Positions 22,056 through 23,170 of a stretch of 43,194 nucleotides of DNA are shown here, piece by piece. The notes under the pieces were generated by a model. It saw only the letters and a program-made list of their open reading frames with translations. It had not been told where the DNA came from and ran no database searches. Source of the stretch: Candidatus Parcubacteria bacterium (GTDB lineage: Bacteria > Patescibacteriota > Saccharimonadia > Saccharimonadales > 2-12-FULL-41-12); NCBI GenBank assembly GCA_019347895.1, contig JAHWKM010000010.1:1-43194 (forward strand). Direction: 5' to 3'. A program made the position numbers and the translations under genes. Within the stretch, counting starts at the first letter, position 1, and each line of letters begins with the position of its first letter.

Positions 22056-22100
22056 TAATACTAATTATACGATGTTATCTAAGGATCTTCAAAAAAATTG

Positions 22101-22119
22101 TGGTGCGGATAGCGGGAAT
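22101..22119. repeat. 19-bp copy of the tRNA-Gly 3' end
   Basis: Identical to the 19 bases at 22348-22366, which are the CCA end, acceptor strand and part of the T arm of tRNA-Gly(CCC). The two copies flank about 228 bases with several hairpins (for example 22195-22211 and 22267-22292) and no gene. This is the pattern left by integration at, or partial excision from, a tRNA 3' end. Confidence 0.6.
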
Positions 22120-22347
22120 ACCTTGTATATTCTGCAGTGATGCTCGAAATAAAAATTTCTGCGCGTCACTTTGATTATCGTACCCGTGTCTCAGCAGCTC
22201 TTCTAGCTGCAAAATTACTGGTGCGGGATACGAGAAGGTTGTTGGCGCAACTTCCCTCGCTGCTCGGTAAAATCAAGCAAGCTTAATTTTACCTGCGCGG
22301 CTGCGTCCACCAAACTCGTACCTCTTGCTTCCGTCCTCCGTGGTAGT

Positions 22348-22421
22348 TGGTGCGGATAGCGGGAATCGAACCCGCGTCTCAACCTTGGGAAGGTCACGTC
22401 CTGCCATTGAACGACATCCGC
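22348..22421 (-). tRNA. tRNA-Gly(CCC)
   Basis: Acceptor GCGGATG/TATCCGC, D arm, anticodon stem TGACC/GGTTG with loop TTCCCAA (anticodon CCC), T arm CGGGTTCGATTCCCG, discriminator A and encoded CCA at 22350-22348. It lies 6 bases downstream of the interrupted tRNA-Thr. Confidence 0.95.
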
Positions 22422-22427
22422 TTTTGA

Positions 22428-22616
22428 AGCCGTCGACCGGACTTGAACCGGTGGCCTACTCTTTACCTGTCCGTCGTACATAACTTTGGAGCCGAAGGCG
22501 GGATTTGAACCCGCGACCTTCACTTTACGAAAGTGCTGCTCTTCCAACTGAGCTACTTCGGCATGTACTATGGAAGGCGGGCGAAAGAGCCGCTCTACCA
22601 GCTGAGCTACGACGGC
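22428..22616 (-). tRNA. Interrupted tRNA-Thr with a tRNA gene inside
   Basis: The 5' part (22616-22584) has acceptor GCCGTCG, TA, D arm GCTCAGCTGGTAGAGC, G, anticodon stem GCTCT and TT. The 3' part (22467-22428) has GGTAA, stem AGAGT, AGGCC, T arm (22452-22436), acceptor CGACGGC and U. All four stems pair correctly across the gap and the joined loop reads TTGGTAA (anticodon GGT; CGT if the junction is shifted). The 116-base interruption contains the complete tRNA-Thr(CGT). Its flanks pair (GTACAT with ATGTAC; CCTTCC with GGACAGG), which would hold the two halves together. It is too short for a group I intron. It could be a split or intron-like tRNA, or a pseudogene. Confidence 0.6.
22487..22562 (-). 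tRNA. tRNA-Thr(CGT)
   Basis: Acceptor GCCGAAG/CTTCGGC, D arm GCTCAGTTGGAAGAGC, anticodon loop TTCGTAA (CGT), T arm GCGGGTTCAAATCCCGC, discriminator U and encoded CCA at 22489-22487. It lies entirely within the anticodon-loop interruption of another threonine tRNA. Its UCCA end fits the UGGA bulge of the thrS T-box. Confidence 0.95.
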
Positions 22617-23059: not shown

Positions 23060-23095
23060 CCCCGTTAGAAAAGCGAGCTCACTTTTCTAACGGGG
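23060..23095. repeat. 14-bp hairpin overlapping tRNA-Asp 5' end
   Basis: CCCCGTTAGAAAAG (23060-23073) pairs perfectly with 23082-23095. The last bases of the second arm are the first bases of the tRNA-Asp acceptor stem, so the two folds exclude each other. Confidence 0.6.
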
Positions 23096-23170
23096 CTCGT
23101 AGTGAAGTTGGCCCATCACGCCTCCCTGTCACGGAGGAGATCGCCGGTTCGAATCCGGTCGGGCCCGCCA
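23093..23170 (+). tRNA. tRNA-Asp(GTC)
   Basis: Acceptor GGGCTCG/CGGGCCC (one G-U pair), D stem GTGA/TCAC, anticodon stem CCTCC/GGAGG with loop CTGTCAC (GTC), T arm GCCGGTTCGAATCCGGT, discriminator G and encoded CCA. GGGCCCGCCA from its end is repeated at 23203-23212. Confidence 0.95.

Follow-up and report, generated by a model that had tools for sequence, protein, structure and literature searches.

A complete tRNA-Thr(CGT) gene within the anticodon loop of a broken tRNA-Thr(CGT) gene: a probable tRNA gene replacement in a Patescibacterium

On the minus strand of a contig from Candidatus Parcubacteria bacterium, two halves of a tRNA gene enclose a complete tRNA-Thr(CGT) gene (positions 22616-22425). 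The window, that is, the whole stretch of DNA analysed here, is this 43-kb contig (43,194 nucleotides) of a 907-kb draft genome, which comprises 27 contigs and is 92.6% complete. We consider it likely, with a probability of roughly 0.77, that the resident gene was broken and replaced by an insertion carrying a tRNA gene with the same anticodon between inverted arms, and that the outer halves are not rejoined. At the level of sequence comparison, the insertion into a resident gene and the presence of a matching replacement are both demonstrated. Beyond this, we infer that the inner gene is expressed and suffices on its own; it presumably came from outside, and its arms would be part of a mobile palindromic cassette. 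The features of the locus and its neighbours are as follows.

22582-22616, minus strand: 5' half of the outer tRNA-Thr(CGT), with the 5' strand of the acceptor, the D arm, the 5' strand of the anticodon stem and loop bases TTCG (stem pairing; alignment to the unsplit Thr(CGT) of relatives)
22563-22581, minus strand: left linker CCCGCCTTCCATAGTACAT, in partial pairing with the right linker (linker pairing test, fold)
22487-22562, minus strand: inner, intact tRNA-Thr(CGT) with encoded CCA (ARAGORN; Rfam tRNA, 68.9 bits)
22466-22486, minus strand: right linker AAGTTATGTACGACGGACAGG (linker pairing test, fold)
22429-22465, minus strand: 3' half of the outer tRNA-Thr(CGT), with loop bases TAA, the 3' strand of the anticodon stem, the variable loop, the T arm and the 3' strand of the acceptor (sequence, stem pairing)
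22425-22428, minus strand: discriminator base T of the outer gene, followed by TCA where relatives have CCA (sequence)
22348-22421, minus strand: tRNA-Gly(CCC), conserved downstream neighbour of the Thr locus
23093-23170, plus strand: tRNA-Asp(GTC), conserved divergent upstream neighbour

The insert is 116 bp long (22581-22466) and consists of a 19-base linker, the 76-base tRNA and a 21-base linker. As the original prediction had stated, it holds an intact tRNA-Thr(CGT), and all four stems form in the outer tRNA, the acceptor and T arm perfectly. The acceptor has 7 of 7 pairs, the D stem 4 of 4, the T stem 5 of 5, and the anticodon stem 5 of 5, one of them G-U. The outer T loop reads TTCAAGT, and the joined halves are called as a single tRNA by ARAGORN. 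Folding the whole stretch gives the nested structure as the minimum-free-energy state, with outer arms, linker helix and inner cloverleaf, at a z of -3.97, although any tRNA would contribute much of that value. The statement that the ends of the interruption pair with each other held only in part. Such pairing is real and strong across the class of loci described below, but in the window copy it is weak, with a 6-bp core that about 8% of shuffled linker pairs equal or better.

The outer gene had been taken for a tRNA-Thr(GGT) with the joined loop TTGGTAA. However, the position of the junction can be shifted by 2 bases: with 22582 placed next to 22465, the loop reads TTCGTAA instead, and ARAGORN accepts both. 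The unsplit orthologue in G005, a genome of the same family, reads CTCT TTCGTAA AGAG, and many genomes of the order have the same neighbourhood, with a divergent Asp(GTC), one unsplit Thr(CGT) and Gly(CCC). Because unsplit orthologues at the syntenic locus read TTCGTAA, the outer tRNA is a Thr(CGT); the 42 Thr(CGT) alleles of the order, together with the syntenic locus, rule out Thr(GGT). By this comparison, the outer halves are what is left of the Thr(CGT) gene resident at this locus, the break falling between anticodon positions 35 and 36. The outer gene is 89.5% identical, over the whole tRNA, to the Thr(CGT) of G005 and likewise 89.5% identical to that of G035. The outer and inner tRNAs are 78% identical to each other, making them distinct alleles with the same anticodon, and G006, which belongs to a different family, has a Thr(CGT) 92% identical to the inner tRNA.

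Of the 35 tRNA matches that the genome gave, the inner gene is the sole Thr(CGT). Neither Thr(GGT), Thr(TGT), Ile, Trp nor Tyr tRNA genes were recovered among these 35 matches in the draft (92.6% complete); their absence presumably reflects assembly gaps or further interrupted genes. Because the assembly misses some tRNAs, arguments from the absence of other isoacceptors are weak. The proposed search for a second Thr(GGT) did come up empty, yet it is beside the point because the outer tRNA is CGT.

Similar arrangements were found in other genomes. An independent Thr(CGT) lies within a damaged Thr(CGT) in G113, between perfect 14-bp arms (TCCCGCACCTTTTT / AAAAAGGTGCGGGA), and G537 provides a third case of Thr(CGT) within Thr(CGT), with arms TCCAGC..TTTT / AAAAGCTGGA. 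Fragments of the Thr gene also occur beside intact copies, 5' fragments preceding the intact gene in G019 and G001 and 3' fragments trailing it in G002 and G064. For a wider survey we used a pattern of two D-arm motifs spaced 30-60 bases apart, which is tighter than tandem tRNA genes allow. This pattern was present in 6/393 genomes of the order and 8/240 of the phylum, and a reversed control pattern gave 0 in both. A GTDB-wide scan returned at least 116 stretches; among the matches listed, 105 have an intact inner tRNA, and in 32 of these 105 an outer 3' half is present as well, its acceptor and T arm matching. Removal of two tandem arrays from these 32 left a nested set of at least 30 loci in which both halves of the outer tRNA are present. 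Patescibacteria account for at least 21 of the 30 listed loci, and the rest to Clostridia (tRNA-Phe), Bacteroidota, Planctomycetota and Lentisphaerota, with four unassigned.

Three properties mark this class of loci. Among the matches listed, the outer anticodon stem was readable on both strands in 15 loci, and in 10 of them the outer loop was compatible with the inner anticodon, against 0.7 expected; two of the 10 (L150, L222) are tandem intact genes and thus false positives, without which the count is 8/13. An uninterrupted helix of at least 8 bp between left and right linkers was found in half of the listed loci (15/30) compared to 4% of mismatched pairs, a result reached in 0/5000 permutations. 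The outer genes are often decayed: an anticodon strand is missing, or the T loop or variable region contains extra hairpins, as in L156, L159, L161, L163 and L186; outer genes about as intact as that of the window exist too, for example in L213 and L228.

A nested tRNA-Met is present in G011 (L108) and G274 (L112), which belong to two families, and homology between the two loci extends through the linkers (85% over 155 bases), with a similar gene upstream in both. Their arm sequences differ while complementarity is kept. Going by this comparison, the structure may be maintained and not decaying; either selection on the RNA fold or DNA-level correction of palindromes could account for the complementarity. 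The corresponding pattern, TACCAN{8,38}AGGACTCATA, identified three real loci, in G011, G070 and G274; the further hits that were inspected (L235, L237, L238, L239) were discarded as nested cases, there being no tRNA nearby.

Several other observations were made in the course of the scan. Locus L161 contains at least four tandem tRNA-Val 5' halves, with one inverted arm, before an intact tRNA-Val(GAC), and a further hairpin in the outer T loop. In gut and rumen Clostridia, a nested tRNA-Phe with near-identical linkers recurs (L176, L205, L120, L179, L198, L206, L209), and in L176 and L205 the end of an apparent tyrosine-recombinase gene, going by our reading of the frame, lies beside it on the other strand. 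Viral contigs were considered as vectors and rejected: their 17 pattern hits were mostly phage tRNA arrays, protein or simple repeats, and no comparable cassette was recognised among them. In the open-access literature on bacterial tRNA genes and their mobile elements, we did not find the nested same-anticodon layout described.

Is the outer tRNA still made? Its gene ends in TCA, whereas CCA is encoded by 34/34 distinct other tRNAs of the genome. Neither the tRNA-splicing endonuclease (PF01974) nor RtcB (PF01139) had a match in this 92.6% complete genome, although archaeal positive controls matched the former and 9 control genomes the latter. We rejected a group I intron as well: the insert is too short for a self-splicing one, as had been pointed out, and the Rfam gathering scan of the window matched only tRNAs and RNase P and no intron family. 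The intron mode of ARAGORN produced spurious joins only. Nor is the arrangement conserved in relatives, a check that the original prediction had proposed. It is absent from the one same-genus genome compared, and of the 295 genomes of the order searched, only that of the window gave a full-length match, the 294 others having none. Furthermore, rejoining the outer tRNA would add nothing because the inner one has the same anticodon. Splicing of the outer tRNA is thus unlikely.

The original prediction had left two alternatives, a new kind of split bacterial tRNA or a gene broken only recently, its stems still perfect. The former fares poorly given the missing PF01974 and PF01139 matches, the TCA end, the redundant anticodon and the absence from the same-genus relative. 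A recently broken gene fits the outer halves best, and is favoured by the unsplit orthologues, the mutated CCA and the damaged outer copies elsewhere; the four perfect outer stems in the window also suit a functional gene and so count against reading the halves as a relic.

We weighed these data against four other explanations. In one, the nested gene is a functional split tRNA: after excision of the inner tRNA, the outer halves stay together through the linker helix and are joined by some endonuclease and ligase. Such a tRNA would have the four perfect stems seen here, a predicted fold in which the nested structure has the minimum free energy, linkers that are complementary across the class, and compensating arm changes of the kind that separate G011 from G274. 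Nevertheless, we regard it as very improbable: with the same anticodon inside, there is no decoding need for it, the enzymes searched for and a group I intron were not matched, the outer CCA is mutated, the one same-genus genome compared lacks the arrangement, and outer copies elsewhere are partly stemless or carry extra hairpins in the T loop or variable region. An assembly artefact or chimera is less probable still, and we give it almost no weight. The genome is a draft in 27 contigs, and a number of the pattern matches elsewhere fall on runs of N that mark scaffold gaps, but the window stretch contains no N, the flanking tRNAs are syntenic with those of relatives, and the same layout appears in independent assemblies from many labs.

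The two remaining explanations concern how the insert arrived, and we judge both unlikely and neither ahead of the other. The locus could be the remnant of an integrase island, in which a tyrosine integrase attached the island at the anticodon loop, the island gave a working tRNA, and the remainder was deleted later. The anticodon loop is among the known crossover sites (PMC4383910), the clostridial nested tRNA-Phe adjoins what appears to be the C-terminal part of a tyrosine recombinase (L176, L205), and tRNA 3' fragments lie near the Thr genes of several relatives. However, no island sequence is left, the two junctions share no repeated multi-base core, the only tyrosine recombinase of the genome is 14 kb off and may be a chromosomal Xer, and the insert has its own complete tRNA while both outer halves persist, unlike the textbook outcome of one complete and one partial gene. 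Alternatively, illegitimate recombination or tandem duplication, with no dedicated element, could have captured a tRNA gene, possibly from DNA uptake, at a break in a palindrome or anticodon-loop hairpin. Inner and outer genes that are near-identical in L161 and L108 agree with this, as do tandem 5'-half copies in L161 and L156, which unequal exchange would give. On the other hand, random capture would be expected to yield neither complementary linkers in most loci nor arm motifs (CCTGCCCGCC, CCCCGTTA) shared by unrelated genomes, and the inner and outer genes of the window are different alleles.

The replacement of a resident tRNA gene by an inserted one would proceed as follows. The vertically inherited tRNA-Thr(CGT) would have been broken within its anticodon by the 116-bp insertion, which would have brought another tRNA-Thr(CGT) allele between short inverted arms. 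The inner tRNA would then be freed from the transcript by RNase P and 3' trimming and would take over decoding, leaving the outer halves as a fresh relic that is never rejoined. Viable insertions would be those that supply the lost anticodon; they would survive because they compensate for the gene that they destroy. As a source of the insert, a reverse-transcribed mature tRNA was rejected because such a copy would encode CCA, and several inner genes (e.g., L129, L156) do not.

A textbook tRNA island restores only the 3' part of its target, and therefore one complete and one partial tRNA result. Tycheposons are tRNA-associated mobile elements of kilobase size with recombinases. They resemble the window in combining a complete tRNA gene with mobile DNA, whereas the window has a minimal cassette within another tRNA gene. 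REP/REPIN and Rickettsia palindromic elements are non-autonomous inverted-repeat elements, short palindromes that land in RNA genes; to our knowledge, none carries a tRNA between its arms. The window may likewise have short palindromic DNA in an RNA gene, and a Y1-type transposase is represented in the genome by two PF01797 matches. Inverted arms are highly significant class-wide, while those of the window copy alone are reached by about 8% of shuffles.

In islands that target tRNA genes (Islander type, PMC4383910; tRNA gene fragments, PMC9897764), as in the window, the target is broken at a known crossover site, a working tRNA arrives with the inserted DNA, and part of a copy is left behind. 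The tRNA gene with a fragment beside it that is expected of such islands is present as the inner tRNA and the outer 5' and 3' halves. In contrast, the halves are separated by just 116 bp, which hold no integrase, and the inner gene is not fused with the resident 5' part, since it has its own 5' half, which differs from that of the outer gene. The window further differs in that its insert is only 116 bp, a complete separate allele flanked by inverted linkers, with both outer halves kept. Archaeal split and intron-containing tRNAs share the disruption of the anticodon loop and the complementary sequences beside the break, but the window has a full tRNA inside and a redundant outer one, and no endonuclease or RtcB was found in its genome. 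Group I introns in bacterial tRNA genes are also inserted in the anticodon loop; the insert here is too short, has no Rfam match to them and holds a tRNA.

A few features point to a possible carrier. The arm motifs named above recur in unrelated genomes, and plain hairpins with related arm motifs occur without a tRNA in L156 and L193. One of the two matches to the Y1-transposase family has an in-frame stop. The only tyrosine recombinase domain of the whole genome (36209-36736, plus strand; 14 kb away, near tRNA-Arg(CCT)) is probably the chromosomal Xer recombinase. Integrases are known to cross over in tRNA genes at the anticodon loop, the T loop and the T/acceptor junction (PMC4383910). We view the inverted arms, shared motifs, tRNA-less hairpins, crossover sites and Y1 matches as clues to the carrier, none of them proof.

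Other short elements surround the tRNA genes of this region. Downstream of the tRNA-Gly gene are fragments of its 3' end, one at 22101-22119 of the window (minus strand; 19 bases exact, ATTCCCGCTATCCGCACCA) and another at about 22220-22235 (minus strand), separated by hairpin-rich stretches and resembling serial attachment-site scars. A short hairpin family (ACGCGCAGAAG..TTCGAGCA; ..GCGAAGCTATA adjoining a tRNA 3' fragment) was seen in several genomes of the order next to the genes for tRNA Asp, Thr and Gly (L065, L068, L072, L085, L089 and window 22100-22340), and at times, as in G006, a member of this family splits the T arm of a tRNA remnant.

The structure is real and uncommon, and it is a variant of a known theme, that of tRNA genes as landing sites. 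The surprising part is its recurrence across the phylum with same-anticodon inner genes and inverted linkers. We tentatively propose, as a possibility that falls short of even odds, that a class of minimal self-compensating mobile cassettes exists in Patescibacteria and some other bacteria, each a tRNA between inverted arms, which insert into the loop of a same-anticodon tRNA, kill and replace the gene, and hence can no longer be lost; the window would be among the freshest examples. Elsewhere, the described outcome is a large island with a whole gene at one end and a partial gene at the other. Here, a complete same-anticodon gene inside the loop of the broken one, in a phylum of tiny genomes, suggests a route for swapping essential single-copy tRNA genes. 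Nesting further accounts for tRNA 'introns' and half-tRNAs of a kind apt to be missed or misread by annotation tools, and the nested loci offer a testable system for what moves such small cassettes.
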